Origin: a bacterium
GTDB taxonomy: Bacteria > Myxococcota_A > Bradymonadia > UBA7976 > UBA1532
DNA: 46,853 nt
Direction: 5' to 3'
Assembly (NCBI GenBank): GCA_030426945.1
Contig: JAUHXL010000005.1
Span: forward strand, 1 to 46,853
The notes below the pieces were generated by a model, which worked only from the letters and a program-made list of their open reading frames with translations, was not told the DNA's origin and did no database searches. Positions 2,993-45,319 of this stretch are shown here, piece after piece. The number at the start of each line of letters is the position of its first letter. Positions within the stretch are counted from its first letter, which is position 1. Position numbers and translations under genes: made by a program.

Positions 2993-3116
2993 GGCGCTCG
3001 TCCTCGCGTCGGCGGCGTCGCCGCGGGCCGGAAGCCTCCGAAAACGTGGCGGTCGTTGCAAGGGGCGGGCGTTCGTGGCATCACCACCCGTCCGGGACTG
3101 TTCGTGGAGGTTGCCG

Positions 3117-3695: not shown

Positions 3696-3717
3696 CCCGC
3701 CCCCCGGGAGCATCACC

Positions 3718-5508: not shown

Positions 5509-5540
5509 AGAAGCCTCCACCCGACCCCCACGCCCACCCC

Positions 5541-15442: not shown

Positions 15443-18166
<2,724 letters not shown>

Positions 18167-18170
18167 GCGG

Positions 18171-22931: not shown

Positions 22932-24103
22932 GGGTTGGCGCTCCCCAGCAACCCCTGCCGCCACAGCGCGCCCAGCGTGTCGCCCTCGGCCAGCAGGGCG
23001 CGCACCTGCGCGTCGTCGGCCGCCCGGTGCACGGTGGTGAAGCCCCGTCGCTTTTCGAGCCAATACACCTCGCTCACGTCGGCGGCGTCGAGCACCTCGG
23101 GCGAGTGCGTGCTGGCCATCACCTGCCCGCCTCGGCGGGCGTAGTCGCGGAACTCCTCGACCAGCTCGCCCAGCAGCGTCGGGTAGAGCTGGTTCTCGGG
23201 CTCTTCGATGCACAGCAGCGGGTGCGGCGACGGATCGTGCAGCAGCACCAGGTAAGCGAACATCTTGATGGTGCCGTCGGACACGTAGCGCGCGATGAAG
23301 GGATCCCGGAACGACCCATCCTGGAAGCGCAGCACCAGCCGCCCGTCCACGGTCTGCGCGGCCTGTACGTCCGCGACGCCGGGCACCCGCGCCTTCATGC
23401 GCGCCAGCACGCGCTCGAACACCGCGGGATGGTGTTCGTACAGGTACTGCGTCACCAGCGGCAGGTTCTCGCCCGCCGGCGACAGGTGCTCGGCGTAGCC
23501 CGTCTCTTGGCTGGGCCGCGCCGCCTGGATGTGGAAGTCCGACAGGTGCCAGCTCTCGATCAGCCGGCGCAGGCTGGACACCACGCGGAACTTCTCGAAC
23601 TGCCCCAGCCCCTTGATGGCCAGGATGTCCGGCGCGTTCAGCCGCTGCGGCTCGCGCTCCATCTCGGCGTCCGGCACGTCGTAGTCGGCCTCGTTGGTGA
23701 CCGCCGTGCCCTCGCCGTGGCGAAAGTCGAGGAAGTGCCAGGGCTTGCCGTGCTGCCCGCGCCGGTACTTCAGCAGCTCGCGCTCGGCCACCACGCGGCC
23801 GTCGCGCTCGCCCACCTGGAGCTGGTAGGTCACCAAGGGGCCGTCGTCGTGCTCGCGGAACTTCACCTCGACGACGATGGGCCCATCACACCCGCGGCTG
23901 CGCAGCTCTTTGAACCCGCCGCGCTTCGCCACCGCGGCGCTCAGGTTGTTCTGCAGCGCGTCGCGCAGGAAGCCGAACACCTCGAACAGTGTCGTCTTGC
24001 CGCTGCCGTTGGCCCCCACGAAGAAGGCCAGCGGCGGCAGATCGGCGATGTCTACGTGGCGGAACACCCGGAAGTTGTCGATCCGCAGCCTCTCGATCCG
24101 CAC
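22928..24103 (-). CDS. AAA/ABC-type ATPase (OLD/SMC-like), partner of DUF4276
   Basis: The 391-residue ATPase opens with RIERLRIDNFRVF, typical of OLD- and RecF-like ATPases. It has Walker A GANGSGKTT with K36 and a YVSDGTIK segment in the signature-motif position. Walker B is LLCIEEPENQLYP near residue 300, and the switch His lies in STHSPE near 335. No membrane segment is present. The GTG at 24103 has AAGGAGG upstream with 8-base spacing, 21 bases after the pglX stop. It ends in a 4-base overlap with the DUF4276 gene. Such ATPase plus DUF4276 pairs occur in defence islands, and I infer an OLD-like sensor ATPase controlling the TOPRIM-like partner. Confidence 0.87.
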   Translation of the reverse strand: MRIERLRIDNFRVFRHVDIADLPPLAFFVGANGSGKTTLFEVFGFLRDALQNNLSAAVAKRGGFKELRSRGCDGPIVVEVKFREHDDGPLVTYQLQVGERDGRVVAERELLKYRRGQHGKPWHFLDFRHGEGTAVTNEADYDVPDAEMEREPQRLNAPDILAIKGLGQFEKFRVVSSLRRLIESWHLSDFHIQAARPSQETGYAEHLSPAGENLPLVTQYLYEHHPAVFERVLARMKARVPGVADVQAAQTVDGRLVLRFQDGSFRDPFIARYVSDGTIKMFAYLVLLHDPSPHPLLCIEEPENQLYPTLLGELVEEFRDYARRGGQVMASTHSPEVLDAADVSEVYWLEKRRGFTTVHRAADDAQVRALLAEGDTLGALWRQGLLGSANP

Positions 24104-24124
24104 CGCGCGCGCCTCCTTCGCTGG

Positions 24125-28362
<4,238 letters not shown>

Positions 28363-28372
<10 letters not shown>

Positions 28373-28898
28373 GCGACCTCCCATCGTGCATCGGGTCGCG
28401 AGCGGCTGCCGGCCCACCCAGGTCCACTGGGCCACCAGGCCAACGTGCCCGTGCCCGTGCCCGTGCCCGTGCCCGAAATCCCGCGCCCACGTGGGCCGCC
28501 AGCCCAGCGCGCAGGTCCACGAAGGCCGCCCGCGTCCCTGGGTCGTCCACGCAGGCAGCGCGCCCACGCGCGCGCGCCCGAACGCTCGCGCCGTCCGTCG
28601 CGATCGCCGAGCCGCCGCCTCCCGACCCCGTTCGGGCACGGGCACGGGCACGGGCACGGGCACGTTTTCGGACCGAGCGCTGCGCCCAACCCCACCGCGG
28701 TGCTCATCGATGCCCTGCTCGCGGGTCGTCCACTCAGGCACCACGCCCACGCGCTCGCGCCCGAACGCTCGCGCCGTCCGTCGCGATCCCCGTGCCGCCG
28801 CCTCCCGACCCCGTTCGGGCACAGGCACGGGCCCGTCTTCGGACCGAGCGCTGCGCCCAGCCCCACCGCGGTGCTCATCGATGCGTCCCTCGCACCGC

Positions 28899-28902
<4 letters not shown>
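28363..28902 (-). CDS. possible translated linker ORF between brxC and pglX (179 residues, repeat-encoded)
   Basis: This frame starts at a GTG overlapping the brxC TGA by four bases (GTGA) and ends at a TGA overlapping the second pglX ATG by four bases (ATGA), the same coupling seen elsewhere in this operon. The product is Arg/Gly/Pro-rich. It contains two copies of MSTAVGLGAALGPKT followed by a variable Cys-Pro run and NGVGRRR, then a Gly-Thr run near residue 150. No family is recognised. Several other frames are also open here, so openness alone is not evidence; the double overlap is. It may serve mainly to carry ribosomes from brxC to pglX. Confidence 0.35.
28443..28665. repeat. 35-bp perfect inverted repeat built from five hexamer units
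   Basis: Bases 28443-28477, with five CGTGCC-type units, are the exact reverse complement of 28631-28665, separated by 153 bases. In the pglX leader RNA these arms could pair into a very stable stem 70 bases upstream of the start codon. They could also form a cruciform in DNA. Copy number could vary by slippage. An effect on pglX expression is inference. Confidence 0.8.
28540..28713. repeat. direct repeat, copy 1, in the brxC-pglX interval
   Basis: About 174 bp, closely matching the second copy at 28723-28884. It includes the five-unit hexamer run. It ends with a 16-base sequence (28695-28710) identical to 28354-28369 at the pglX start, so on the minus strand each copy carries an ATG and the first codons of pglX (MSTA). 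Together with copy 2 and the inverted hexamers this accounts for the 526-base interval 28373-28898, which has no other gene. Confidence 0.85.
28723..28884. repeat. direct repeat, copy 2, in the brxC-pglX interval
   Basis: About 162 bp, aligned to copy 1 at an offset of 183 bases, falling to 171 after the hexamer run because this copy has only three degenerate hexamer units. The 16-base pglX-start sequence recurs at 28866-28881. The net spacing of 171 keeps the linker ORF in frame through both copies. Confidence 0.85.
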
Positions 28903-32543
<3,641 letters not shown>

Positions 32544-32550
32544 CGGCGCC

Positions 32551-33189
32551 TCACGAATAGATGCGGGGGCGGTAGTCGCGATCGGGGTCCAGGACGCCCA
32601 TGAACGAGAGGCCCGCCTCGTGCTTGCGCTCGCCCGGGTACAGCAGGACGACCGGCACGTTGCGGGTGCGGCCGTCGAGGTGCTTCAGCAGGGCCGAGGT
32701 GCGCAGGAAGGGGTACAGGGCGCCCGCGCGGCCGACCAGCACGAGGGTGCGGTCGGCCTGATCCGGGTGGGCCTCGACGAAGTCGGTGACGATGCGGGCG
32801 CAGTCGGCGGCGATGCCCTCGGGTCCCTCGAGCAGGCGGACCACCTTGCCGGCCAGATAGTTGAGGGCGCGGGGGTGGCCACGGTCGGCCAGGCTGCGCT
32901 CCATGGCGGCGATGCGGGCCAGCTGATCGTCGCCCAGGGCGCGCAGGCGGTCGAGCATCAGGCGGTGCAGCGAGACGGTCAGGGTGACCCAGCCGTGGGA
33001 CTGCAGATCGGCGACCAGGCGGTGGGCGTGGGCGCGCAGGGCGAACTCCTCGCGGGGGTCGTACTGCAGGATGGCGAAGCGGTAGTTGCGCATCGTGCTG
33101 ATGCGGGGGCCGTCGTCGTGGATCAGGTCGGCGCGCAGGGCGGCGAAGGCGCCGTCGACCTTGGGGCGCTCGAAGCTCATTTGGCTCAT
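32551..33189 (-). CDS. brxB: BREX protein BrxB (DUF1788 family)
   Basis: The 212-residue protein fits BrxB/DUF1788. It contains NYRFAILQYDPREEFALRAH, a helical middle, and an alpha/beta end with LVLVGRAGALYPFLRTSALL and VPVVLLYPGERKHEAGLSFMG, which is highly conserved in this family. No catalytic motif is known. The ATG at 33189 overlaps the brxA stop by four bases (ATGA); a second ATG at 33180 is possible. BrxB is small, cytoplasmic and required in characterised BREX loci, probably as part of the BrxC/PglZ complex. Larger in-frame extensions are Arg/Pro-rich and overlap brxA. Confidence 0.9.
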   Translation of the reverse strand: MSQMSFERPKVDGAFAALRADLIHDDGPRISTMRNYRFAILQYDPREEFALRAHAHRLVADLQSHGWVTLTVSLHRLMLDRLRALGDDQLARIAAMERSLADRGHPRALNYLAGKVVRLLEGPEGIAADCARIVTDFVEAHPDQADRTLVLVGRAGALYPFLRTSALLKHLDGRTRNVPVVLLYPGERKHEAGLSFMGVLDPDRDYRPRIYS

Positions 33190-33974
33190 CGGGCCACCTC
33201 GGCGGACGGGCGCGGGTCGAGGGGCAGCGTCGCCTCGGCCCAGGCGCGCAGGTCGGCGTGCTCGAAGGTCAGGTCGGTCAGCGCGCCCATGCGGGCGAAG
33301 GCGACGCCGGGCAGGCGCCGCAGGCGGTCGTCGAGCGCGCGGCCGACGAGGCCGACCGACACGAGGTACGGGTTGTCGGTGAGGGTGCCGGTGTGGTCGA
33401 CGCCGCGCAGCAGGTACAGCAGGTACGCGAGGGCGTCGTCGGGCACGGTGGGGAAGACCACCGGGCGGGGGTCGCGATTGGCGGCCACCAGACCCGCGGC
33501 GTAGGCCGACGAGAGCAGCTTCGAGGCGAACTGGACGCAGGTGGCGGCGGTCCAGCGGGCCGGGCCCACGCGGGTGACCCAGTCGGCGACGTGGTCGCGG
33601 GTGACGGTGGGCCGGGTCGCGGCGTGCCGGGCGATGAGGCACTCGGCGGTGAAGGCGCGGTAGAGGGGGTCGGCCAGCTGCAGGTGCCAATGGCCCACCA
33701 GGACGCGCACGTCGGGGCTCATGGACGACCAGCGGTGCAGCACGTCGAGGGCCTGAGGATACGCGTCGAAGCGCAGGCGGAAGTTGGCCAGCAGCACCTC
33801 GACGCGGGCCATGCTGCGCGCGCCGAACCAGTAGTCGGCGAAGGCCTCGGCCGCGGCGGGCGGCTCGGCCGCAGGATCGCGGCGCTGCCAGTACGCGCGG
33901 GCCGGCTCGACCTCGAGGGCGCACTTCATCAGCCGGGTGTGCAGCGCGGCGACTTCGGCGGGGCGGTCGCTCAC
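33186..33974 (-). CDS. brxA: BREX protein BrxA (DUF1819 family)
   Basis: The 262-residue helical protein fits BrxA/DUF1819: an early helix MKCALEVEPARAYW, then FADYWFGARSMARVEVLLANFRLRFDAYP, then VGHWHLQLADPLYRAFTAECL. Characterised BrxA proteins are small DNA-binding proteins (known). The GTG at 33974 was chosen because it overlaps the brxE TGA by GTGA and the conserved region starts soon after; the much longer in-frame extension is low complexity. It precedes brxB with another 4-base overlap, so stoichiometry of BrxE, BrxA and BrxB is probably set by coupled translation. Confidence 0.88.
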   Translation of the reverse strand: MSDRPAEVAALHTRLMKCALEVEPARAYWQRRDPAAEPPAAAEAFADYWFGARSMARVEVLLANFRLRFDAYPQALDVLHRWSSMSPDVRVLVGHWHLQLADPLYRAFTAECLIARHAATRPTVTRDHVADWVTRVGPARWTAATCVQFASKLLSSAYAAGLVAANRDPRPVVFPTVPDDALAYLLYLLRGVDHTGTLTDNPYLVSVGLVGRALDDRLRRLPGVAFARMGALTDLTFEHADLRAWAEATLPLDPRPSAEVAR

Positions 33975-34540
33975 GCGTCCTTCCGATGGTGCGGCAGCGG
34001 GTAGTCGTCGGTCAGGGGGCGCAGGGCGGCGACGAGCTGGCGGGCGCGGCGCGCGGGCGCGTCCGACGCGCCGGTCACGCGGCGACCGGTCGGGGCCTTC
34101 TGGAAGGTGACGGTCCCCTGCCCGTCGCACCACGCGTCGAAGTCGGCGCTCGACCAGGCGTCGCGGGTCACGACGCTGGCCAACCCCGGCAGGGCGACGA
34201 GGGGGTCGGGCTGTTCGTGCTTCAGCTGCTGCAGGCGGTCGTCGAGCTGCTCGTCGATCTCGAAGCCGAAGCGGAACAGGGTGTAGAGGCGGTCGGGATC
34301 GGCGTCGCGGGCGCGGCCCCAGGCGTCCACACGCCGCGCCGCCTCGCGCGCCGACTGCAGCGCGGCCCACACCGCGGTCTCGGGGAACATGCGGCGAAAC
34401 AGATCCTCGCCGCCGAACTCGCTGGCGAGGTCGGTGTTCCACCAGCCGAGACGCTCGGGCTCGGCGCTGCGCTCGCCGGCCCACGCCACCGCGAGCTGCA
34501 GGGTGAGGACGGCGTCGAGATCGGGGATCGGGATGAGCAT
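33971..34540 (-). CDS. brxE: BREX type 6 protein BrxE
   Basis: The 189-residue protein matches the BrxE family that defines type 6 BREX: DLDAVLTLQLAVAWAGE, LGWWNTDLASEFGGEDLFRR, AALQSAREAARRVD and LYTLFRFGFEIDEQLDDRLQQL. The protein is helical and probably cytoplasmic; its function is unknown. The ATG at 34540 was chosen because similarity starts there; 28 upstream in-frame residues are low complexity. It is the first gene of the BREX operon, 225 bases downstream of the beta-CASP gene on the same strand. No convincing promoter was found in that gap, so the operon promoter may lie there in a form I cannot recognise. Confidence 0.87.
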   Translation of the reverse strand: MLIPIPDLDAVLTLQLAVAWAGERSAEPERLGWWNTDLASEFGGEDLFRRMFPETAVWAALQSAREAARRVDAWGRARDADPDRLYTLFRFGFEIDEQLDDRLQQLKHEQPDPLVALPGLASVVTRDAWSSADFDAWCDGQGTVTFQKAPTGRRVTGASDAPARRARQLVAALRPLTDDYPLPHHRKDA

Positions 34541-34699
34541 GCTCGCCTGGAGTCCGGTGAATCGATGCGCGAAGCCCTGCACGGCCGACGCCCGTGCCGG
34601 CCCGCGCGGGCGGTAGGAAACCACGGCCGGGGGCGGAGGCGGGAGACTGAACGTGTGTACCGTTGGTCGCCGCGCGGCCGGCGATGGCTCCGGACGCCG

Positions 34700-34720
34700 C
34701 GGGCCATCGTCGAAGGCCCG
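34700..34720 (-). terminator. weak hairpin after the beta-CASP nuclease gene
   Basis: A 6-bp stem (CGGGCC with GGCCCG) and 9-base loop lies 46 bases past the stop of the minus-strand nuclease gene, upstream of brxE. No U-run follows. It could end that transcript before the BREX operon, but the evidence is only the stem. Confidence 0.22.
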
Positions 34721-34765
34721 ACGCCTGCGGCTGAGACCCCCCGGCCACGCGCGCCCGAGCAGAGC

Positions 34766-36469
34766 TCACTCGGCGTTCGCGGACTCGAGGGCGGCCAACC
34801 TGCGCTGCAGCGCTTCGACCTGCGCGCGGAGCAGCGCGACCTCGTCGCGCTCATCAGCGAGCCAGTCGCCGCTGTCGAGGTCGAACCAGCCGTGATCGAC
34901 GGACGGGAGCTCGGTCCGAACCTGCCCGCCCAACTCCACGGCTCGGCGCTCAATCGCCTGAGCCAGCGCACGCCGGGGCGACGGATCTCCGTGGGTGACG
35001 AAGACGGTCTTGGCGATGGGCGTCGGCGCCATCGCGTCCGGCAGCGTGCCGAAGAGCCAGTCGAGCAGCCCTGCTTGGTCGGCGTGCGCCGAGTAGCCAC
35101 TCAGGATCCCGATGTGCAACTGGACGTCGCTCAGCGGGACCGCGTCGCCCATCACGTCCAACGACCCCTCCTGCCGCGCGCGATCCTCTCGACCAAGACT
35201 GGCCAGACACTGCAGCCGGCCAGCCAGCGAGGCCGGGGACGCGTAGCCGGTGAGCAGCAGCGTCGCCTTGGGGTCGTCCAGCAGTGCACGAAGGTAGAAC
35301 TGCACCGGCCCGCCGTCGCACATGCCGCCGCCCGTGACGACGATGCTGGGTCCATCCGGCACGCTGCGTTCCTCGGGGCAGGTCCAGATCCGTCGCCAAT
35401 TCGCGAGGACACCCGGCCGCGGCTCGGTCGGGACATGGTCCGCGCGCAGCATCTCGCGAAGGGCGTCGAGGACAATCGCCTCGTCCTCGGCCACGTCGCG
35501 CCGAAGCCCGAGCGTGTCGAACAGCGCCTTCGCCAGCCAGGCAAGCCGCACCTTACCCGACCGATGAGTCACGGTCCGCCCCAACGCCGCGGCGTAGACG
35601 CGACTCACGTTCATCGCCATCGGCCCATCGAGAATGACCGGCACGCCGCTGTACGTGTCGGGGTGCTGCGCGAACAACAGGTGCAAGTCGAAGAGCAGGT
35701 CCTGCGTCCTTCCGACCGCGAAGGCGGGCATGATCACGGGTCCGCGGCGCTCGCCGAGCGCGGTGGTCAGCGCCTCGTGCAGCCTCTCCAACCGCCGGGC
35801 CTGGTCCCGCTGCTCGGGGGCACGAACGGTGCCGCCGTAGGTGGACTCCACCACGGCGTAGTCGGTGAGCGCGGGGCCCATGCGAAACCGCATGAGCGGC
35901 GCGTGCTCGTTGCTCTCGGCGTTGTCGCCCAGGTCGCCCGAGAAGGTGATCGACCGCTGAGCGCTCACCTCACCCGGCCGGGGACGTGGCCCCGAGATGA
36001 CGGTCACGGCCGTGGCACCGAGGATGTGGCCCGTGCGGTAGAAACGGAGCCAGAGGTTCGTTCCGACGGGACAGAACTGGCCGAAGACGGCGTTCCCCGG
36101 CTCGTGCCACTTGATGCGGTCGACGTGCTTGCGCGTGTACGACGCGCCCTCGTAGCGCGCCGCGTCTCGCAGCACAGTCTTCGCGAGGGCGATGGTCTCC
36201 TTCGTCGCGAAGACCGTTCCGCCGAAGCCCTCCCGATAGAGTCGGGGGATGAGGCCGCAGTGGTCGAGGTGGGCGTGGGTGAGCACGACGAAGTCCAGCG
36301 TGCTCGGGTCGAAGGGCAGCGGACCCTGGTTGCGCTCACTGGCCAGGCGGTCGCCCTGACGCATGCCGCAGTCGACGAGAAAGTGATGACCCGCGACCGG
36401 ATCGTACAGCTCGTAGCAGCTGCCCGTCACTCGATCGAGGGGGTCGTGGAATCGAAGCCTCAGGCCCAT
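34766..36469 (-). CDS. beta-CASP metallo-beta-lactamase nuclease (RNA-specificity type)
   Basis: The 567-residue protein has the metallo-beta-lactamase zinc motif HAHLDHCG (H65, H67, D69, H70), then TGHILGA and FSGDLGD for further metal ligands. The beta-CASP insert includes VIMPAFAVGRTQDLL and IVVTGGGMCDGG. The post-CASP region has GYSAHADQAGLLDWL and VFVTHGDP, typical of RNA-processing enzymes such as CPSF73/RNase J relatives. The last 30 residues form a coiled coil (LLRAQVEALQRRLAAL). The ATG at 36469 has GGAGGTGA 5 bases upstream; longer extensions overlap the divergent gene. It is divergent, across about 170 bases, from the RNA-polymerase-like gene and helicase, and is the natural third member of that module. 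RNA or DNA cleavage is likely; target unknown. Confidence 0.9.
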   Translation of the reverse strand: MGLRLRFHDPLDRVTGSCYELYDPVAGHHFLVDCGMRQGDRLASERNQGPLPFDPSTLDFVVLTHAHLDHCGLIPRLYREGFGGTVFATKETIALAKTVLRDAARYEGASYTRKHVDRIKWHEPGNAVFGQFCPVGTNLWLRFYRTGHILGATAVTVISGPRPRPGEVSAQRSITFSGDLGDNAESNEHAPLMRFRMGPALTDYAVVESTYGGTVRAPEQRDQARRLERLHEALTTALGERRGPVIMPAFAVGRTQDLLFDLHLLFAQHPDTYSGVPVILDGPMAMNVSRVYAAALGRTVTHRSGKVRLAWLAKALFDTLGLRRDVAEDEAIVLDALREMLRADHVPTEPRPGVLANWRRIWTCPEERSVPDGPSIVVTGGGMCDGGPVQFYLRALLDDPKATLLLTGYASPASLAGRLQCLASLGREDRARQEGSLDVMGDAVPLSDVQLHIGILSGYSAHADQAGLLDWLFGTLPDAMAPTPIAKTVFVTHGDPSPRRALAQAIERRAVELGGQVRTELPSVDHGWFDLDSGDWLADERDEVALLRAQVEALQRRLAALESANAE

Positions 36470-36641: not shown

Positions 36642-39600
36642 GTGGAGCGGATGGGGTCAGAGCAGGGGTCGACGCCGAACACTCTCGTCAACGTCGTCCG
36701 TGGTCTGCTGGGCGTGCTGGCGACCGCCGGGCGGGCCGAGACGGCGGCGAGCTTCGAGGCCGAGTTCACCGCACGGGGTTGGACCGACCTCACGCAGGCG
36801 GACGTCGCGCGGCTGACGGCCTGCATCGCCGATCCGGCGGCTCCGGGTCCGCCGAGAGCCACGACCGACTCAGGCAGCGCGACGGTGTCGGTCGACGAGG
36901 CAGCGCAACCCGCGGCCTGGTCGCCCGCACGGGACTTCGGCGCCTTCATCGACGCGATCCCGCGCGGGTCGGCGCTGGTCGAGGGCCTCGACGAGCTGGC
37001 AGGCACCCATGCGGGGACCGACCCCTTCCAGGCAGCGGCGCGCATCTTCGTGCGCTGCCTCGGCTTCGACGCGGCCCACCTCGACGAGACGTCGCGACTG
37101 GGCAACCAGCGATCGATTCGGCGCCTTCGACGCGTCGCCGAGCACGGGGAGTTCGTCGTGTCGCTCTCCGAGACCGACTATGCGGGCCCTCACCCGCGCA
37201 CCCAGACCAGCGTGTTCCAGCTTCATCCGTACGGGGTGGTCATCTGGGTCGCGGCGCGACATGGCAAGGTGCGCTTCGTCTATCGCGACGTCCGAACGGG
37301 CTCGTTGAGGATGCGGACGTTGGTGGGGGATCGGTACGGCCGCGAGCCGCACGACAACCTCGTCGTATGGGCGATGCGCCTCGCCGACATGGTGCCCCAC
37401 ATCGACGACGATCCCGCCCGGCTGCTGGCTCGGGTGGACGAAGCGCTCTCGCTCGAAGCGAGTAGAATCTGCGCGCGGCACGCTTCGGTCGCGCTCGACG
37501 CAGATGCGTCGCCGCCGGGCATCGCCTGGGAGGACGCGGCGCGGCGCGGCTACGACGCGTTCCTGCAGCGCGGCGAGCAGCGGGCTGACCGCGGGCGGCC
37601 CTGGTTCTGGGGCCTCGAGAGGGTGCTGCGCGACCGCTTCCCCCTGCCGGTGAGCGAAGGACGCCACTGGCTGATGCTCGTCGGCTACGACGTGACGTCG
37701 TCGTCCGCCGACGACACGGACGCGATCGCCGTCCGAATGCGCCTGCGGCTCCAGCGGGACGACGAGACGGCCGATGACCTGACGCTCGACGCCTTGGTGC
37801 CGACGGTCGACGCGCAGGGCCGCATCCGCTCGAGGGACGACTGGTTCGTGCTCGTTCCCCGAGCACAGCGCGGTGGGCGGCTGCTCAGCGGGATCGTGCG
37901 CGGCAGCGCGGAGGACGCCGAGGAAGCGGTGGACCTGCTCGCCGAGCCGCTGATCACCGGTGCTCCGCCGTCGGATGGCCACGACGAGGGCGACGCGAGC
38001 GTCGCCCTCGACGATGATCGACTTGCCGGGCCCAGCGGCGACGATCTGACCGACGACGCGGCGGACGCGCCCGACGACGAGGAGACCCCGCCCGAGACGA
38101 CCCGCGAGGAGCTGCAGTTCGAGGGTGCCGATCACTGCACGCTGTTCGAGGTCGCGGCCGCCCGAAAGCTGGGCGCGCTCGCGCTGCGCCTCTGGAGGGC
38201 CGAGCCCAGCGTCGAGGGCGTCGAGTTGGCGTGGGCGGGCCTGACGGACGCGCGGGGGCGCTTCGAGTTGCTCTCGGTGCGCTACCTGAAGGCGGTGCTG
38301 GAGCCTGCCGGGGCTGGCCCGCCCCCCCTCTCGACCATCACGTCTGCCGAAGACGACCTGGCGGCGGTGCCTCCGAGCTGGGCCTGCCCCGATCTGTCCG
38401 CGGCCCTGCCCGTTGGCCGGTGGTACCCCGTCGCCGGTGCGCGCTTGAACCCGGCGGGCGGCTTGGCGGTTCCGCGCCTCGTCGACGGAGCGACTCGCTG
38501 GACACTGGCGATCACGGACGAGCCCGCCACCACCGCTAACCCCCGGCTGATCGGCGACGAACCCAGCCGTCCGGAGGATTGGATCGCGAAGCCCCTCGCT
38601 CCCTGGGCGCACCTACGGCCGGGCCAGCTCGAGTCCGCCGCGGTGCTCGCGCAGCTGCCGGTCCGGCGGTGTACGCTGGACGTCCTGGTGACACGGGGCG
38701 ACCACGCCGTCCTACGGCTGAACGACTCGGCCTTCGCGCGTCATGTGCCCCCCGCGGCGCCACAGACGCTCCGCGTGGGCCTGCCTGCGTTCACCGACGA
38801 GGAACCGTCGCTGCACGTCGCGCCGGGCGAGCGCGTGGAACCCGGTGCGGTGTGGCTGAGCTGCCCGCGGCGCGCGTGGCAAGGGGGCGCTGCGTCGCCC
38901 TGGGACGTGGAGTCTCGCCATGGGCCCCGTCGCCTGACCACCCACCGCCTCTACGAACAGACCATCATCGGCGAGGACGAGGAAGAGGAAGAGGAAGAGG
39001 AAGACGAAGATTGGACCGACTGGATGTGGACCACCAGGCACCTGGCCTGGCGTGTCCCTCCACACCTCGCGGGCGTCGTGACGGCCGCTCGTCTGGACGT
39101 GCACACCGATTCGTATGGCGTGCGCCTGCAGTGGACCGCCGAGTTGACGGTTCAGCCGACCAAAGGGTCGACGACGGCCTGGGCGTGGCTGCCCGACGGT
39201 CAGGTGGTGCCGATGGAGCGCTTGTGCGAGGCGGACGCGCCGATGGCCGCAACGGGCGAAGTCGACGCGTTGCTCACGCTCGACGAGGGATCGCTGGACG
39301 ATGGAGACGACCAAGTCGCATGGCGGGACGGCTGCACGGGTGAATTGCTGGACGGTGCTCGGGCTCGAGCCCTGGACGTCAGCATCGGCACGCAGGGGAC
39401 GCCGCCCTTCACGGGCGCCGACCCCTGGTTGAGGGTCCGGCTGCGCGATGGAGAGGGTATCCCCTCGAGTCGGGACTCTGCCGGCCTCTCTGCGCTCGAC
39501 CGGTTGATGTGGTCCATCGTCGACCCGACCGGTGGCGCCCGACTCGACGCACACGAGCGCGCGTGGAGTGGTGGCGCCCCCGCCTACTGGAGCGCGCTGT

Positions 39601-42260
39601 GCCGGGTCCTGGACGCAGCCCGAGTGCCCGTGCCGTCTCTGGACCCCCCGGGCGGCGTCGCCCCGCGTGCCCGACTCGAGTTCGTCCCCCTGCGCATCGA
39701 TGCCACGATCGCGAGCGGCCGCAAACGCCGCGGCGACATGCTGGACGACGGCTTCGAGTCGGCGAGGACGTGGTCCTGTACCTGCGGCGCGGTCGAGGGC
39801 GCGCACCGCGCCCACGAGGGCTGTGCCTCATGCGGCGACGACTGTAGACCCTCGACCCGGCCCCTGACGACGCGGCCGGTGATGAGCCTGCCCGAACCCG
39901 TGGTACATCCCTGGCGCGCCGCTGCGACCGCCGCCCTGTTGGGTCTGACCGGCGATGAACTGCGGATCACCTGCATCCACTCAGGTGGGCGGGTGGTGGC
40001 CGACGCCGTTCGTCGCGCCTGGCCGACGCCCTTCGCGGCGGTCGAGGCTCGCCTACGCGAGGATCTGCCGAAGAGCGTTCGTCGGTCGCTCGGTCGAGGC
40101 GTCGATGACCTGCGGTGTCTGCTCGAAGCGGGCACCGACCGTCACGATCTCGTGCTCCGCTGGCTGCCGCGATTGCCCTCGTACCTTCACCCGGCTGGCC
40201 TTCCGCAGGGGGCCCCCGGCCTCGTCACGTCGCCCTTGACCAAGGCCTACCAACGCGTCGCGCGCGCCGGCCGCCGCATGGCCAGCTTTCGTGAACAGGG
40301 CTCACAACTGCTGCTGGCGACCGCGCGGTTTCACTATGTACAGGCGGTGGAGGCGCTCTTCGGCGATCCAGCCATGCGGGCATCACCGGGCGAGCCGGGC
40401 AGCCTCGCCACGTTGTTGCTCCGACTCTGGCCGCTGAGCAGGGCCGCCCGGTTGCGTAGCAGTCTGCCCGACATGGCGCTGGTGCGGGGTGGCATCACCT
40501 CCTGCCCGCGCGACCACGTGCGCCTCGACCCGGTGCCAGTGGACCCGGACGCGAGAGCGGAGACGACGCCGGAGGTGGAGCGGACAGCGGTTCGCCACCC
40601 GTCGTGGAGAGCCGATGACGAAGCCGCGCATGGAGTGCCCGCCGCTTCCCACCAGCTCCCGTCCGAGGGCGCTCCCGCGCGGCACCCCATCGGGCGACTC
40701 CGGGCCTTCGGCCTACAACCTTCGACCGTCACGCTCCTGCGAGCGTGCGGCATCACCGATGTCTCCGACCTCAGCTGGATTCGAAAGGCTCGGCTTCGGC
40801 AAGTGTCATCGCTTGACGACCGGACGGCGAAGCGGGTCATCCTGGCCCGCAATCGGTACCTCGAGAGCCGGGGCCTCACCCCAGGTACGGTGCGAGAGGC
40901 TGCGAATGAGGCTCGCCCGCCCGCGCGTGGTGGCGGGACGGACATCCTCGACTGCCCCCTCTCTCGGGCGCGTGTGGGAGATCCGCGGGGACTGCGCTTC
41001 GTGCTCAACTCCCTGCCCCGGTCAGTTCGACGCTGGGCTCGTTGGCGGGGGCTCGTGACCATCGGTGACCTCGCGAGCCAGTCTCAATCCGCCATGGTTC
41101 ACGAGGGCGTCCCGGAGCGTCACGTTGCCGAAGCCCGGCTTCGCCTCGGGGCGCTCCCTGCGTGGGAGGGAATTACGGGCGACGCCGCTCCGGACACGGT
41201 CCTCGAGCGGCGCCTACGAAGGGAGCGGCCCGATCTGCGCGCCGTCGTCGTGCGCGCCGCAGGCGAGTGGCTGAACCAGCCGTGCATCACCAACAGCAAC
41301 CGCAGCGACTTGGCCGAGTCATTGACCTGGGCCGAGCGGGCCGCCACAGACCTCTTCTGGAAGCACGTAGGGGTGCCCCTCACGATCATCCTCGGGCGCC
41401 TCACCTGGACGACGGCGTTCGATGCGGACGCACCCAACGCCCCGTCAGCGGCCACCTTGCTCGAGGTGAACGAGCGAGCCGAGCCGCTCGACGGTGGGTT
41501 CGACGTCGGGCGCCGCTGTGCCAACGCGCTGCTCGCCCGGATCGATGCGCCGGCGGCGCTCGTCCAGGCGCTGACCGCCCGCAAGCCCACCTGGCTGGCG
41601 CATGAGCCGCAGAAGGCCTACGCCGTGGTCGCGCCGCTGGTTCGGCGCGCCTTTCCGGGGTCGGAACCATGGCGTGCCTTGGGCCGCTCGCTGTTGACCC
41701 GAATCCTGGGCGGATGGTGGCGCGTGGGCGCAGGAGACGGGGGGGACGGCCGCCGATGGCGCTGGTCCGCCGCGGAGACGGTCCCTGGTGGTCGTCGAGC
41801 GCTGCCACCGCTGTCGAGTGACGCCTGGCTGATGTGGCCAGGGGCCGCCGCCATCCTGCGTCCCGTTCACTTCTTCGCGTTCGGGGGAATCTGGACGCCG
41901 AGCGTTCGAGCGTTGGCTCGGCTGCCGGTCGCATCGCTCGACACGTGGAGTGTCGAAGTTGACGTGCCTGCGGACGCCGAAACGGGGGCGACGTCTTCAC
42001 CCAACGTCGGCGCTCACGCTGACGCCGCCGACCGCCCGCCACATGACACCGACGCCGACACGATGCTGCCTCCGGTGAATGCAGAAACTGACGTCGCCGC
42101 CGTCGCCCCACTGCCCAGCCCTGGCGCGACGATCGCGCAGTCGGCGGCCGAGGCGGACCCGGCGCCGCCGCCGGCGACCGGCGTGCGGCTGCTGTCCGGC
42201 ACGCTCGCGAGATGGATGGCGGCCCACAGCACGCCCGACGATGGGGGGCCCGCAACGTGA
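36642..42260 (+). CDS. giant protein with RNA polymerase beta-prime-clamp-like and alpha-CTD-like regions
   Basis: I know no named family for this 1872-residue protein. Residues 1-1000 are unassigned, with an acidic run (EDEEEEEEEEDEDW) near 780. From about 1014, FVPLRIDATI resembles the RpoC start FDELRIGLAT. Cysteines 1046, 1048, 1061 and 1064 have the same spacing as E. coli RpoC 70, 72, 85 and 88, and the next 27 residues align without a gap to P..H.W. Residues 1171-1290 resemble RpoC up to the RFR..L..KRVD segment. Segments at about 1350-1410 and 1450-1510 look like alpha-CTD helix-hairpin-helix domains. No NADFDGD motif is present, so it is not a polymerase. Start is the GTG at 36642 or the ATG at 36651. 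Its stop overlaps the helicase start by GTGA. A scaffold or polymerase mimic is inferred. Confidence 0.85.
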   Translation: MERMGSEQGSTPNTLVNVVRGLLGVLATAGRAETAASFEAEFTARGWTDLTQADVARLTACIADPAAPGPPRATTDSGSATVSVDEAAQPAAWSPARDFGAFIDAIPRGSALVEGLDELAGTHAGTDPFQAAARIFVRCLGFDAAHLDETSRLGNQRSIRRLRRVAEHGEFVVSLSETDYAGPHPRTQTSVFQLHPYGVVIWVAARHGKVRFVYRDVRTGSLRMRTLVGDRYGREPHDNLVVWAMRLADMVPHIDDDPARLLARVDEALSLEASRICARHASVALDADASPPGIAWEDAARRGYDAFLQRGEQRADRGRPWFWGLERVLRDRFPLPVSEGRHWLMLVGYDVTSSSADDTDAIAVRMRLRLQRDDETADDLTLDALVPTVDAQGRIRSRDDWFVLVPRAQRGGRLLSGIVRGSAEDAEEAVDLLAEPLITGAPPSDGHDEGDASVALDDDRLAGPSGDDLTDDAADAPDDEETPPETTREELQFEGADHCTLFEVAAARKLGALALRLWRAEPSVEGVELAWAGLTDARGRFELLSVRYLKAVLEPAGAGPPPLSTITSAEDDLAAVPPSWACPDLSAALPVGRWYPVAGARLNPAGGLAVPRLVDGATRWTLAITDEPATTANPRLIGDEPSRPEDWIAKPLAPWAHLRPGQLESAAVLAQLPVRRCTLDVLVTRGDHAVLRLNDSAFARHVPPAAPQTLRVGLPAFTDEEPSLHVAPGERVEPGAVWLSCPRRAWQGGAASPWDVESRHGPRRLTTHRLYEQTIIGEDEEEEEEEEDEDWTDWMWTTRHLAWRVPPHLAGVVTAARLDVHTDSYGVRLQWTAELTVQPTKGSTTAWAWLPDGQVVPMERLCEADAPMAATGEVDALLTLDEGSLDDGDDQVAWRDGCTGELLDGARARALDVSIGTQGTPPFTGADPWLRVRLRDGEGIPSSRDSAGLSALDRLMWSIVDPTGGARLDAHERAWSGGAPAYWSALCRVLDAARVPVPSLDPPGGVAPRARLEFVPLRIDATIASGRKRRGDMLDDGFESARTWSCTCGAVEGAHRAHEGCASCGDDCRPSTRPLTTRPVMSLPEPVVHPWRAAATAALLGLTGDELRITCIHSGGRVVADAVRRAWPTPFAAVEARLREDLPKSVRRSLGRGVDDLRCLLEAGTDRHDLVLRWLPRLPSYLHPAGLPQGAPGLVTSPLTKAYQRVARAGRRMASFREQGSQLLLATARFHYVQAVEALFGDPAMRASPGEPGSLATLLLRLWPLSRAARLRSSLPDMALVRGGITSCPRDHVRLDPVPVDPDARAETTPEVERTAVRHPSWRADDEAAHGVPAASHQLPSEGAPARHPIGRLRAFGLQPSTVTLLRACGITDVSDLSWIRKARLRQVSSLDDRTAKRVILARNRYLESRGLTPGTVREAANEARPPARGGGTDILDCPLSRARVGDPRGLRFVLNSLPRSVRRWARWRGLVTIGDLASQSQSAMVHEGVPERHVAEARLRLGALPAWEGITGDAAPDTVLERRLRRERPDLRAVVVRAAGEWLNQPCITNSNRSDLAESLTWAERAATDLFWKHVGVPLTIILGRLTWTTAFDADAPNAPSAATLLEVNERAEPLDGGFDVGRRCANALLARIDAPAALVQALTARKPTWLAHEPQKAYAVVAPLVRRAFPGSEPWRALGRSLLTRILGGWWRVGAGDGGDGRRWRWSAAETVPGGRRALPPLSSDAWLMWPGAAAILRPVHFFAFGGIWTPSVRALARLPVASLDTWSVEVDVPADAETGATSSPNVGAHADAADRPPHDTDADTMLPPVNAETDVAAVAPLPSPGATIAQSAAEADPAPPPATGVRLLSGTLARWMAAHSTPDDGGPAT

Positions 42261-45200
42261 GAGCCTACGTCAGCTGCGGCGAGCTGCGCGCGGAGCATCT
42301 CGCGTTGTTCGAAGACCAGGCGCCGGCAATCGACCTGATGCTCGCGGCCCCCGGCCTGCTCGAACGCCCCCCGGCCGCGCACGCCGAGGTCGCGCGCGCG
42401 CCCGGCCTGCCGCTCAGCGTCGCGAAGGGCCACGGGTTTCTGTCGGCGCTGCTCGACGCGTTCTCGGTCGACCTGGATCGATTGCCCCAGACCGCCGCGT
42501 GGGAGCGGCGGATCGCGCGGTGGATCGACACCATCGACCGAGGGGGTGCTCGGTTCTGGTTCCGTCGGGACCAGCCCGCGCACACCCGCCTCGTATGCCT
42601 GGCCGGCGCCAGCGTGGTGACCGCGAGCCCATTGGTGGCGGACCTCTGGGCCAGCGCCGATCCGGACGGTGACTTGCGGCTCGAGGTGACCGGCGCCGAG
42701 CACGACCGGATCAGGGCGTGGTTCGAGCGCGTCCGTGACCGGGCGCAGGACGTGACGCCGCAGGTTCGCGCCGCCCTCGCGGCCTGCTGGGCCGGGGACT
42801 TCGCCGATCCCGAGGACGTCTACTATCGGGTGGTCGCGTCGTACTTCCGGGCAACGCTCGACGGATTGGACGCCGAAGCCGACGACAACCCCATGCGCGC
42901 CGTGCTCACCGAGTTCCAGGACGACGCGTACCAGCACGCTAAGAGCATCCTGCGCCGCTACGGAGGCGTCGTGCTCGCCGACGTCGTGGGCCTGGGCAAG
43001 ACCTACATCGCGGTCGCGCTGTTGTCCTACCTGCAGCGCTCGACGGGATCTCACGCGCTGGTGCTGGCCCCACCGGCGATCTGCCGCGCCTGGGACGATC
43101 TGGCGGCCGAACACCGCATCGAGCTGGTGACGTTGTCGACCGGCAAGCTCGAGGACCTGGATCGGTATGCCGACCGCGAGGTCGTCGTGATCGACGAGTC
43201 CCACAACTTCCGGAACATGGACACCCGCCGCTACGAGCGCATCTCGGCGTGGCTGCGACCGCACGGCGATGCCGCGGAGCGCCGGGTCCTCCTGCTCTCG
43301 GCCACCCCCCAGAACACGAGGCCCTCGGACCTGTTGGCGCAGCTCCACATGTTCCCGGATGTGTACAGCCCGCTGCCGCACCGGGGTGAATCGCTGCAGG
43401 CGTTCTTTCGCGAGGTCGAGCAGGGCCGCGCCGACGCGACGTCTCTGCTTCAGCACGTCGTGGTGAGACGGACCCGCAGCTTCATCCGGACGGCCTACCC
43501 CGAGGCCAAGGTGCGGCTACGGCAGGACGATGGCCAGCTCGCCTGGGTCCCGCTCCGATTTCCGCGACGGCTTTGCGGGGAAGAGCAAGCGCTCCGGTAC
43601 CGGATCGACGAGGCCTATGCCGGCGACCTGTACGCACGGCTGCTGCGCACCCTCGCCCAAATGCGCTACCCGCTGCACGGTCTCGGTTTCTATGTGCTGG
43701 AGACTGCCCGGGACGACCGACGCCTGAGGAACCTCTCCCGGAGCGGAAAGGGACTTCGCGGGCTGTACAAGGTGCTCCTGCTCAAGCGTCTCGAGTCGAG
43801 TGTTCATGCGTTTCGGCTTACCGCCGGGCGCCTGCGAGACCGGCTCGAGCAGGGGCTCCGTCAGCTGAGCGATGGTGTGGTTCGTATCCGCGTGGGCCGC
43901 GGTGGCACGGACGACGACGACACCGACGACACGCTGCTCGACGACGGGCCGATCGACGTGCCCGCGGCCCTCTTCGAACGCCGGGCGTTGCGTCGCGATT
44001 TGATCTATGACCGCGGCCTCATCACCGACCTCCTCGAGTCCATCGCCGACTTGACCCCCGACCGAGACTCGAAGCTCCAACGCCTCCGCGCGTGGTTCGT
44101 TGCGCGCCCACCGCAGCGCCATCGCACCGTGGTGTTCACGCAGTTCGCCGACACCGCCAGGTGGCTGTTCGATCAGCTCGGCGCCGAATACGGTCGCGCT
44201 CGAGTCGTCACGGGCGGCACGTCGGGGACGCTCGGCATCATTCGTCGGTTCGCTCCACGAGGCAATCACGCCGTGACGGAGCCGGCCGACCAGATCGACC
44301 TGCTGATCTCGACGGACACCCTGAGCGAGGGCGTGAACCTGCAGGACGCCGACACGCTGATCAACTACGACATCCACTGGAATCCGGTTCGCCTGATTCA
44401 GCGAGCCGGCCGCATCGACCGAATTGGCAGCCCGAACGACGAGATTCAGATCGCGAGCTTTCTGCCCGAGACGAAGCTGGAGGCCGCGCTGGGTCTCGAG
44501 GCGGTCGTGCGCTCGCGCATCGCCGACTTCACGTCGGTCTTCGGCGAAGACGGCGCGTTCCTGCCGGCGGGCGAGCAGCTGGACGAGGGCGATGTGGTCA
44601 GCGCCTATGCGGGCCGCGCGCTGGCCGACGCGGACGAGGGCGACGCGATGGACGGCCTCAGCCGCCACGCTCAGCGCGTGCTGCACCTCAGGCGGCGAAG
44701 GCCAGACCGGTTCGACCACATCATGGCTCTGCGTCCAGGCGTCCGGGCGCTCAGCGCCGGTGGCGGTGTGCCGGACGTCGCCGCAACACGCCTGGGCTGG
44801 TACTGGCGCTTCTGGGGACGGCCGATCGTCACCGGCGCCCTGGAGCCGGTCGACGACGTCGACGGGATGGAGCTGCTGTGGCGGCATGCCCAGGCGGGCG
44901 CCCCGACGTCACCCGCCGACGCATTGGTCCGTGAGAGGGTCCGGAGCATGGCGGCGGAGGGGATGCGCAACTTCGAGCCCGACGCGCTGGCTTTCCGCGC
45001 CCGCAAGGAGCGACCTCGGCTCGAGCCGATCGAGGAGTGGGTACGCGAGCGCCTCGATGCCTATTCCGCCCGCTGCGTCCAGACGCGACGGCCGTTGATC
45101 GACCAGATGATCGCCTGGGTACTCGCGGGCCAGCACAAGCCGGTGCTCGTCGGCCGCGGTCGTCAGTGGCGCAAGGAGCAGCTTTCTGGCGAGGCGGTCT

Positions 45201-45319
45201 TTCAAGGGATGAAGAGCCTGTTGCGGCAGTTGCCGCTCCTGCACGAGGAGCTGGGAGACCCAGAACTTGTGGCGGTGTCCGTCGGTGTCAGCGGGGCACC
45301 TGACCCCGCCCGCGACTGA
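42257..45319 (+). CDS. SNF2-type helicase/translocase with degenerate PLD-like N-terminus
   Basis: The 1020-residue protein has SNF2-type motifs: Walker A VLADVVGLGKT (K248), DESH at 313-316, LLSATPQN, and in the second lobe VVFTQFADTARWL, STDTLSEGVNLQ and QRAGRIDRIG (Q715). Residues about 105-150 resemble the phospholipase D-like N-domain of helicases from defence islands (HTRLV...ASPL, then a WFERVRDRAQDV helix), but the catalytic HKD residues are not intact. The C-terminal 250 residues are unassigned. The GTG at 42257 overlaps the TGA of the preceding giant gene by four bases, so the two proteins are made together. SNF2 enzymes move on duplex DNA, and RapA uses this to remodel RNA polymerase (known); a link to the RNAP-like partner is inference. 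Confidence 0.9.
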   Translation: MRAYVSCGELRAEHLALFEDQAPAIDLMLAAPGLLERPPAAHAEVARAPGLPLSVAKGHGFLSALLDAFSVDLDRLPQTAAWERRIARWIDTIDRGGARFWFRRDQPAHTRLVCLAGASVVTASPLVADLWASADPDGDLRLEVTGAEHDRIRAWFERVRDRAQDVTPQVRAALAACWAGDFADPEDVYYRVVASYFRATLDGLDAEADDNPMRAVLTEFQDDAYQHAKSILRRYGGVVLADVVGLGKTYIAVALLSYLQRSTGSHALVLAPPAICRAWDDLAAEHRIELVTLSTGKLEDLDRYADREVVVIDESHNFRNMDTRRYERISAWLRPHGDAAERRVLLLSATPQNTRPSDLLAQLHMFPDVYSPLPHRGESLQAFFREVEQGRADATSLLQHVVVRRTRSFIRTAYPEAKVRLRQDDGQLAWVPLRFPRRLCGEEQALRYRIDEAYAGDLYARLLRTLAQMRYPLHGLGFYVLETARDDRRLRNLSRSGKGLRGLYKVLLLKRLESSVHAFRLTAGRLRDRLEQGLRQLSDGVVRIRVGRGGTDDDDTDDTLLDDGPIDVPAALFERRALRRDLIYDRGLITDLLESIADLTPDRDSKLQRLRAWFVARPPQRHRTVVFTQFADTARWLFDQLGAEYGRARVVTGGTSGTLGIIRRFAPRGNHAVTEPADQIDLLISTDTLSEGVNLQDADTLINYDIHWNPVRLIQRAGRIDRIGSPNDEIQIASFLPETKLEAALGLEAVVRSRIADFTSVFGEDGAFLPAGEQLDEGDVVSAYAGRALADADEGDAMDGLSRHAQRVLHLRRRRPDRFDHIMALRPGVRALSAGGGVPDVAATRLGWYWRFWGRPIVTGALEPVDDVDGMELLWRHAQAGAPTSPADALVRERVRSMAAEGMRNFEPDALAFRARKERPRLEPIEEWVRERLDAYSARCVQTRRPLIDQMIAWVLAGQHKPVLVGRGRQWRKEQLSGEAVFQGMKSLLRQLPLLHEELGDPELVAVSVGVSGAPDPARD

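Follow-up and report, generated by a model that had tools for sequence, protein, structure and literature searches.

The window, by which we mean the whole stretch of 46,853 nucleotides that was analysed, carries a pair of overlapping genes for a degenerate RNA polymerase (RNAP)-like protein, here called pseudo-RNAP, and an SNF2-family ATPase. The features discussed below are as follows.

15446..34769, minus strand: type-6-like BREX operon (BrxE, BrxA, BrxB, BrxC, PglX, PglZ, BrxD, BrxHI), context
22365-24103: HEC-01 pair between PglX and PglZ of the BREX operon
34766..36469, minus strand: beta-CASP metallo-beta-lactamase nuclease, divergent neighbour, context
36642..42260, plus strand: pseudo-RNAP, 1872-aa degenerate single-chain beta-beta-prime-like protein (GTG start; RNAP homology; orthologues in 5 other loci)
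36927..37541, plus strand: N-terminal domain of pseudo-RNAP, residues 96-300, kept in orthologues
37539..37871, plus strand: beta N-terminal-like block, residues 300-410 (block HMM selects RpoB; profile match to beta)
38784..39296, plus strand: beta double-psi-barrel/flap-like block, residues 715-885 (RpoB matches; catalytic lysines replaced)
39669..39971, plus strand: beta-prime start and zinc-ribbon-like block, residues 1010-1110 (RNAP alignments)
39777..39833, plus strand: CxC-x12-C-x2-C cysteines C1046, C1048, C1061 and C1064, aligned with E. coli C70/72/85/88
40059..40496, plus strand: beta-prime dock and clamp-helix-like block, residues 1140-1285 (family profile matches)
40659..41201, plus strand: insertion, residues 1340-1520, possibly helix-hairpin-helix (HhH), absent from three aligned orthologues
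41199..41921, plus strand: C-terminal domain, residues 1520-1760, kept in the window clade
42257..45319, plus strand: SNF2-family ATPase with degenerate N-terminal phospholipase-D-like domain (GTG start; 4-bp overlap, GTGA, with the stop of the pseudo-RNAP gene)

A sequence-only reading of the window had placed a degenerate beta-prime clamp at residues 1014-1291 of the 1872-residue open reading frame. The frame is real, its four cysteines are spaced as described, and phmmer aligns the stretch spanning them up to H1089-P-W1091 with RNAP gamma/beta-prime without a gap. Conservation among homologues held in part, with the cysteines and the HPW of the P..H.W motif each kept in five of six family members (the last cysteine pair being C-x2-C in three and C-x6-C in two) and both lost in the orthologue from genome G020. 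The likeness of FVPLRIDATI to the RpoC start was recovered in an alignment that is itself weak. The equation of RLRSSLPDMALVRGG with the RFRQNLLGKRVDYSG segment was not borne out, as it was left unaligned for the window protein in the alignment.

Taken alone, the window protein gives little signal. Searched with phmmer against 177,635 distinct PDB sequences, it returned three matches at E<=10, all of them RNAP gamma subunits, the best two comprising two collinear blocks each that are individually weak (E 0.57-2.8). It had no RNAP match in Pfam or NCBIfam, and HMMs of local RpoB and RpoC gave it no score. The RNAP assignment is significant because of the orthologue profiles, and not because of the window protein alone. 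Orthologues came from 5 other loci, and profiles of four and five family members matched beta-prime in the PDB at E 3.4e-12 and 3.3e-13 respectively. A profile of three members without G020, the most RNAP-like orthologue, found RNAP subunits in five of its six matches at E<=10, the best at only 0.0031. Block HMMs of the family select RpoB and RpoC among 6129 ORFs with the order correct, and blocks built without G020 still select both. The G020 protein, searched by itself, likewise shows homology to beta and beta-prime.

The homology reaches beyond beta-prime. The beta N-terminal-like block HMM selects RpoB at E 3.3e-8, and profile positions 302-374 of the family correspond to beta 33-114 (E 0.011). 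Support for the barrel block is weak: RpoB proteins are the first non-family matches of the window-clade HMM (best E 0.0027), and a second block HMM reaches RpoB at E 0.01 at best. Alignment to RpoB by hhalign was not convincing (27.8% probability with G020, 5.5% without it). With RpoC, hhalign extends further than the HMMER matches. Pseudo-RNAP has beta N-terminal and barrel/flap blocks followed by a beta-prime zinc ribbon and clamp helices, the order found in bacterial RNAP, including natural rpoB-rpoC fusions. These upstream beta blocks in fusion order, which the earlier reading had not noticed, rule out a fragment of beta-prime only. From the earlier view of a captured, non-catalytic polymerase fragment, the polymerase origin and the lack of catalysis stand, whereas the restriction to beta-prime was too narrow. 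The homology shows that pseudo-RNAP descends from the beta and beta-prime subunits of bacterial RNA polymerase.

Unlike bacterial RNAP, pseudo-RNAP lacks the catalytic lysines and the aspartate triad, has additional N- and C-terminal domains, and is encoded next to an SNF2 gene. The equivalents of E. coli beta K1065 and K1073, the catalytic lysines, are W/H/Q/H and V/V/V/M in the window, M. qinghaiensis, H. versicolor and G020 proteins. The NADFDGD motif is absent from all six family members, in agreement with the earlier remark that no catalytic aspartate motif is present. Because the beta lysines are replaced in four of four proteins and NADFDGD is missing in six of six, no polymerase activity is expected from the sequences. 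We consider it very probable that pseudo-RNAP mimics beta-beta-prime in a dead form and is coupled to SNF2.

The surfaces that contact sigma have also diverged. R275, E295 and A302 of the clamp helix matter for sigma binding (PMC8321222, PMC10216364). In the four aligned pseudo-RNAPs, R275 is always replaced by A and E295 by A or T, and A302 is kept in two. In the window protein no flap tip can be recognised, and flap-tip residues are retained in G020. Sigma binding by the window protein through the E. coli contacts is ruled out by these unconserved residues. Two AlphaFold models of pseudo-RNAP (mean pLDDT 37.2 and 31.9) were unusable for fold comparison. For residues 1340-1520, the idea of an alphaCTD or HhH domain found no Pfam match and a RAD51 match at E 1.8 only. 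In loci of SNF2 paralogues, the N-termini of large or sigma-like proteins bear a weak hint of likeness to residues 96-300.

The gene pair is present in all six assessable loci, with a 4-bp NTGA overlap in five and an 11-bp gap in the sixth. Pairwise identity among the SNF2 proteins of four pseudo-RNAP loci is 39-70%, and other SNF2s among the ten best matches per query reach at most 35% identity, except for a contig-edge fragment in G049. Walker A is intact in all six paired SNF2s, and HxK of the phospholipase-D domain is lost in all six, reading [HF]xR (two read by eye). Among near SNF2 paralogues, selected and aligned, HxK is kept in ten of ten. We limit the contrast to these near paralogues because a tally across all 80 loci of the SNF2 scan (HxK in 42 of 73 readable N-termini) mixes SNF2 subfamilies. 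Seven large neighbours of SNF2 paralogues were tested, of which five were IIG/DrmM-like methyltransferases, one was pAgo-like and one had no match; pseudo-RNAP fills the large-partner slot held by type IIG/DISARM-like methyltransferases beside several SNF2 paralogues. The partner SNF2 scores best with the models for DISARM DrmD, Dpd DpdE and HKD+Snf2 (PADLOC C3a139), and differs from these proteins in its pseudo-RNAP partner and lost nuclease motif; its DrmD score of 147.6 bits lies far below the curated cut-off of 610. RapA is an SNF2 ATPase that recycles RNAP; the pair resembles it in linking an SNF2 ATPase with an RNAP-like protein, and differs in that RapA acts on the real host enzyme. The RapA score of 40.2 bits, a weaker likeness than that to DrmD and DpdE, is far below the cut-off of 576 and rules out RapA as the identity of the partner.

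In three of nine loci examined (G294, G197 and G238), a sigma70-like gene overlaps a gene of the module. The pseudo-RNAP gene is visible in the first two, and only the SNF2 gene is visible beside the sigma70-like gene in G238. Against the PDB, the sigma70-like proteins match SigA at 3.7e-29 (G294) and 3.8e-13 (G197). Regions 2 and 4 are both found in Pfam and in the SigA alignment for G294; for G197, region 4 is found in Pfam and the PDB alignment spans 141-358; for G238, Pfam finds region 4 only. No sigma-like gene was found in the examined stretches around the window, M. qinghaiensis, H. versicolor, G020, G160 and G049 copies. As a rough control, two sigma-like ORFs occurred among 6129 six-frame ORFs (not genes) of 167 sources, some of which overlap, and one of the two (L126) also directly precedes an SNF2 gene. 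The overlapping SNF2 gene and, in three related loci, the sigma70-like genes escaped the earlier reading; they lead us to see a dedicated module rather than a captured fragment. The use suggested in that reading, DNA or polymerase binding or mimicry, stays an inference.

The neighbourhood and distribution bear on what the module might do. All eight genes of the type 6 BREX list (BrxE to BrxHI, as given above) are present in the operon beside the window pair. The pair is not a part of BREX, as in G020 it adjoins McrBC instead; RpoB and RpoC are not named in the accessible part of a BREX survey (PMC12839542). Plain defence systems adjoin only these two of the six pseudo-RNAP loci. The neighbours tested in G294 (PAAR-like, DUF2169, radical SAM), H. 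versicolor (no PADLOC match) and M. qinghaiensis (IetA-like AAA ATPase, DUF2380, AHH nuclease) are either ambiguous or genes of no defence kind. The distribution is patchy, a claim that rests on a search for the paired-type SNF2 C-terminal domain, which occurs in 7 of 282 phylum genomes. Searches with pseudo-RNAP itself do not prove absence, because the window query, which found 1 of 57 relatives (the window itself), missed the G020 orthologue among them; a second relative scan found 1 of 59, M. qinghaiensis itself. Such insensitive searches gave no lead in plasmids and phages (tblastn), in viral contigs or in a first scan of genome contigs. The G020 protein gave tblastn matches in seven phage records, only over residues 626-754, which were judged host-RpoB-like.

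The pseudo-RNAP/SNF2 module probably acts in defence. At slightly less than even odds, we propose that pseudo-RNAP and SNF2, with the sigma70-like protein where present, form a non-catalytic 'pseudo-holoenzyme' that recognises DNA or transcription complexes for the SNF2 motor. Recognition would fall to the dead core, which has a clamp, a zinc ribbon and, in some loci, its own sigma; the motor would spend ATP at the recognised site by occupying it, translocating along it or clearing it; and the invader DNA would not be expressed. A more specific version, which we put forward as a rather doubtful one, is an immune system in which foreign DNA is detected through its promoters, the dead core docking there with its own or a borrowed sigma without transcribing, and SNF2 silencing or clearing the DNA. 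Such a promoter-docking module would be nature's equivalent of repression by dead Cas9. Many enzymes have catalytically dead relatives that act as sensors or scaffolds, and our literature search found no description of a dead multisubunit-type RNAP dedicated to an SNF2 motor, with sigma in related loci. If the proposal is true, transcription machinery can itself be put to use for recognition, a two-barrel polymerase has a non-catalytic use, and it becomes testable whether immune systems recognise invaders by promoters or transcription complexes.

One alternative is that the dead core is a decoy or guard imitating the host polymerase: RNAP-seizing phage proteins would bind the core instead and so trigger the SNF2 partner. 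The BREX and McrBC neighbours fit this, as does the loss of catalysis with retention of clamp helices and zinc ribbon (surfaces for sigma and phage factors) and of flap-tip residues in G020. However, because these surfaces are divergent (R275 and E295 changed in four of four, the window flap tip unrecognisable, the G020 zinc ribbon lost), the protein would be a poor mimic of the host enzyme, and no nuclease or toxin domain was recognised as effector; we find the decoy unlikely. Alternatively, SNF2 and a polymerase-derived scaffold could remodel host transcription complexes as a housekeeping regulator, with or without an own sigma. The relation of SNF2 to RapA, the sigma70-like partner genes and the small share of loci adjoining plain defence systems (two of six) speak for it, whereas the patchy occurrence (7 of 282), the BREX and McrBC neighbours and the higher scores of SNF2 with the DrmD, DpdE and HKD+Snf2 defence models than with RapA make this, too, an unlikely account.

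The remaining explanations fare far worse. Single-chain two-barrel RNAPs of the YonO-like kind exist, from a superfamily described with a DxDxD triad (PMC7824862), and share with pseudo-RNAP the two barrel halves on one chain, so that a divergent active polymerase with relocated catalytic residues might be imagined. Pseudo-RNAP, however, has lost the DxDxD triad, and its sequence matches fall on bacterial beta/beta-prime. D.D.D strings occur in five of six proteins, but inspection by eye places them in acidic regions apart from the barrel-like blocks, and bridge helix, trigger loop and jaw are reached by no HMMER match among the matches listed for the family. Together with the replaced lysines and missing NADFDGD, which rule out an active RNAP as such, this leaves relocated catalysis highly improbable. 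A decaying relic without function would suit the high divergence of the family (19-51% pairwise identity), but the long intact frames in five genomes (the H. versicolor copy is divided over contig ends) and the conserved coupling to an intact ATPase leave it barely credible. Chance resemblance to beta-prime, which the weak scores of the window protein alone might suggest, is already refuted by the block HMM selection of RpoB and RpoC, by the PDB profile at E 3e-13, and by the G020 protein, whose best matches in 20 of 20 other genomes of its family are frames of 822-1418 aa that each cover the same part of the query, six of them coinciding with Pfam-confirmed RpoC. G020 keeps genuine rpoB and rpoC elsewhere.

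The sequence-only reading had placed an RpoC-like zinc and clamp stretch inside a 1872-residue protein; the frame is real, and the gene of an SNF2 ATPase adjoins it.

36642-42260, + strand: pseudo-RNAP gene, GTG start, 1872 aa
42257-45319, + strand: SNF2 ATPase gene

When searched whole with phmmer against 177,635 distinct PDB sequences, the window protein gave three matches at E<=10, all RNAP gamma subunits. Both alignments displayed consist of two collinear blocks with individually weak scores (E 0.57-2.8), and the first block is gap-free across the cysteines, as had been claimed, here against an RNAP gamma subunit. Pfam and NCBIfam scans of the protein returned no RNAP match. HMMs from 16 local RpoB and 16 local RpoC sequences left it unscored and gave its orthologue in the relative genome G020 25.1 and 21.8 bits (maxima in 1002 shuffled or reversed sequences: 4.5 and 2.8 bits). 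At the sequence level, descent from RNAP is proven through the orthologues and not by the window protein alone; the zinc and clamp stretch is borne out in the same way, its significance coming from orthologue profiles.

The neighbouring SNF2 gene proved a better bait for orthologues than the pseudo-RNAP. It led to the orthologous locus in G020 and, among the best 80 of 566 relatives in a genome-collection scan, to Myxococcus qinghaiensis (L110) and Hyalangium versicolor (L109); the SNF2 C-terminal domain as bait found 7 of 282 genomes of the phylum, including G197 and G294 (a count that takes in an earlier 4 of 140 subset). A pseudo-RNAP gene precedes the SNF2 gene in all six loci with a readable upstream side, namely the window, G020, L110, L109, G197 (L206) and G294 (L210); the G049, G160 and G238 copies were left out because their contigs end within the SNF2 gene. 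A pseudo-RNAP is visible in two of the best 80 scan loci, those whose SNF2 is closest (47% identity); for some of the remaining 78, little upstream DNA is available. Pairwise pseudo-RNAP identity is 19-51%. Searches of plasmids and viral contigs found no relative and those of phages RpoB-like matches only, with a sensitivity at which a known orthologue was also missed.

Judged by these relatives, the pseudo-RNAP is beta plus beta-prime. The G020 protein, the most RNAP-like member, matches beta (1.2e-8, residues 624-754) and then beta-prime (3.9e-5, residues 1080-1190) in the PDB, and NCBIfam gives the same order (7.3e-10 and 2.7e-7). Twenty other genomes of its family were searched with it, and every best match was a frame of 822-1418 aa aligned over the same stretch of the query; six of these frames coincide with Pfam-confirmed RpoC. 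Family profiles reached beta-prime at 3.4e-12 with four members (103 PDB chains at E<=10) and at 3.3e-13 with five (86 chains at E<=0.1), the 60 chains listed being all RNAP in each case. Without G020 the signal is weaker: three sequences of the window clade (the window protein and its closer orthologues) gave six matches at E<=10; five were RNAP, the best at 0.0031, and among these was beta 33-114 at E 0.011. Profile-profile comparison by hhalign, also without G020, recovered the RpoC match (95% probability, E 2e-8, a single comparison) and was not convincing against RpoB. The RpoC claim therefore stands for its beta-prime part and falls in its restriction to beta-prime, as beta blocks lie upstream in the same protein.

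Blocks were also searched against 6129 six-frame ORFs, in which 38 RpoB and 45 RpoC records were recognized by motif; several E-values in the analysis come from single comparisons or small sets. With the window clade, the non-family rows listed for residues 715-885 were all RpoB (best E 0.0027), residues 1140-1285 found RpoC at 1.9e-7, residues 1010-1110 found RpoC at best 0.008, below the stand-alone RpoC-like protein L064, and residues 130-400 found G020 (5e-13), with RpoB appearing among unrelated ORFs only from E 0.17. No RNAP was among the rows listed for residues 395-700, 885-1010 and 1520-1760. With five sequences, residues 300-410 found RpoB at 3.3e-8, and residues 1010-1110 and 1140-1285 found RpoC at 4.3e-8 and 9.8e-7; residues 715-885 were weaker (best RpoB 0.01, one RpoC row amid RpoB). 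Read in order, the protein has an N-terminal domain of its own, then the N-terminus and barrel/flap of beta, then the start, zinc ribbon, dock and clamp helices of beta-prime, and last a C-terminal domain of its own. An insertion at 40659-41201, unseen in three aligned orthologues, looks helix-hairpin-helix-like by eye, with no significant likeness to RAD51.

Beta K1065 and K1073 and the beta-prime aspartates are catalytic residues of RNAP. When the window, M. qinghaiensis, H. versicolor and G020 proteins are aligned to E. coli, the K1065 position is W, H, Q and H and the K1073 position V, V, V and M, respectively; at the aspartate positions three of the four have gaps, and the window protein has S, R and D there, in a poorly aligned stretch. 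The catalytic aspartate motif had been called absent, and indeed NADFDGD is missing in all six family members. The pseudo-RNAP is thus predicted to be catalytically dead. Conservation of the cysteines and of P..H.W holds in five of six members each (the latter as HPW) and fails in one each. The zinc ribbon is lost in G020, where flap-tip-like residues are kept, and the window has an acidic run at the expected flap-tip position (alignment in this region is uncertain). The window's source genome is a draft (75.62% complete), in which PF04997 gave no rpoC match, so the host's own RNAP was looked for in the one-contig genome G020, whose genuine rpoB and rpoC lie elsewhere.

The SNF2 start codon overlaps the pseudo-RNAP stop by 4 bp in five of six loci (GTGA, ATGA, ATGA, TTGA, ATGA), and an 11-bp gap separates the genes in G294. 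Among themselves, the SNF2 proteins of the window, M. qinghaiensis, H. versicolor and G020 share 39-70% identity; all others in the ten best rows per query reach at most 35%, save a contig-edge fragment from G049 (54.5% over 440 residues, against G020). Both ATPase motifs, Walker A and DESH, are intact. The N-terminal phospholipase-D-like domain has lost HxK in six of six (G197 and G294 read by eye), and near paralogues, chosen and aligned, show HxK and GSSNL in 10 of 10. With this loss added to that of the pseudo-RNAP, a nuclease or polymerase activity is recognizable in neither protein, leaving the ATPase as the one predicted activity. The seven large neighbours of SNF2 paralogues that were tested comprised five type IIG/DrmM-like methyltransferases, one pAgo-like protein and one without a match; since the methyltransferases hold the same place, the pseudo-RNAP would occupy the slot of a large DNA-recognizing partner. 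Its N-terminal domain may be shared with such partners, as hinted by matches to SNF2-paralogue-locus proteins (L121 at E 6e-4, L124 at 0.034, the sigma-like L126 protein at about 2).

The surroundings of the pair vary between loci.

22365-24103: HEC-01 pair, between PglX and PglZ of the BREX operon
34766-36469: beta-CASP metallo-beta-lactamase nuclease, divergent from the pseudo-RNAP gene, between it and BREX
L110:13073-14440: AHH-family nuclease gene, just 3′ of the SNF2 gene in M. qinghaiensis

In the window, BREX (BrxE, BrxA, BrxB, BrxC, PglX, PglZ, BrxD, BrxHI) is followed by the beta-CASP nuclease and then the pair, and G020 has McrB (EVE plus AAA_5) and McrC as divergent neighbours; plain defence systems therefore adjoin two of six loci. 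The gene directly 5′ in M. qinghaiensis codes for an AAA ATPase with IetA-like scores and overlaps the pseudo-RNAP gene if the latter starts at its first ATG; many kb upstream there is a kinase with PD-T4-6 scores, which may be an ordinary one. The H. versicolor neighbours tested had no PADLOC match, and those tested in G294 are not defence genes according to Pfam. In G160, a 915-aa frame 3′ of the SNF2 gene (L207:1-2745) has a GPPGTGKT motif and looks helicase-like by eye.

Sigma70-like genes occur in three of nine loci examined, some with one readable side only: 3′ of the SNF2 gene in G197 (ATGA overlap) and G238 (GTGA overlap; contig end, no pseudo-RNAP visible), and 5′ of the pseudo-RNAP gene in G294 (8-bp overlap). 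By Pfam, the G294 protein has sigma regions 2 and 4 and those of G197 and G238 have region 4; in the PDB, the G294 and G197 proteins match SigA at 3.7e-29 and 3.8e-13, respectively. The stretches around the window, M. qinghaiensis, H. versicolor, G020, G160 and G049 copies hold no sigma-like gene; the window ends 1.5 kb past the SNF2 gene, with an epimerase gene there on the opposite strand. A rough control on 6129 six-frame ORFs (167 sources) gave two that resemble these sigma-like proteins at E<=0.01. In L072 the ORF lies several kb away from the SNF2 gene; in the planctomycete L126 it lies directly upstream of an SNF2 gene, and no pseudo-RNAP was found there. In this L126 stretch (671-5532, Planctomycetia MAG), the sigma-like protein looks intact by eye in regions 2 and 4, and the adjoining SNF2 has lost the phospholipase-D HxK; the two possibly form a sigma-guided SNF2 pair.

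Gene order and overlap show a seemingly dead polymerase core tied to an ATPase, with a sigma factor in some loci. Our favoured, still tentative reading is recognition without synthesis plus a motor, in which the core would recognize its target without making RNA and SNF2 would supply the motor coupled to that recognition. Clamp-helix R275 is A and E295 is A or T in the four pseudo-RNAPs aligned to E. coli. This counts against the simplest sigma model, as both residues are described within the sigma interface (PMC10216364, in part) and their change as giving a deficient holoenzyme (PMC8321222, in part); a co-evolved sigma could bind by other contacts. We consider it unlikely that the pseudo-RNAP is a decoy for phage RNAP-binding proteins, and equally doubtful that the pair is a housekeeping regulator. 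The available part of a 2026 BREX survey describes an alphaCTD-like domain in PglW and a RapA-like build of BrxHII and does not mention RpoB, RpoC or double-psi (PMC12839542), and two-barrel RNAPs carry a DxDxD triad according to the portion available of PMC7824862. Full-text searches of partial coverage found no literature on a dead RNAP with SNF2, and because of that coverage the novelty of the module is provisional.

Two stand-alone RpoC-like proteins were also seen. A 559-aa frame in G026 (L064:2583-4259) carries the clamp and zinc ribbon of the RpoC N-terminus (Pfam 2.1e-15), after which the sequence looks beta-propeller-like by eye; its neighbours have DUF4153, DUF1588 and DUF1501. A 295-aa RpoC N-terminal-like protein in G034 (L065:9604-10488; Pfam 8.7e-20) adjoins FGE-sulfatase and DUF1588/DUF1552 genes.
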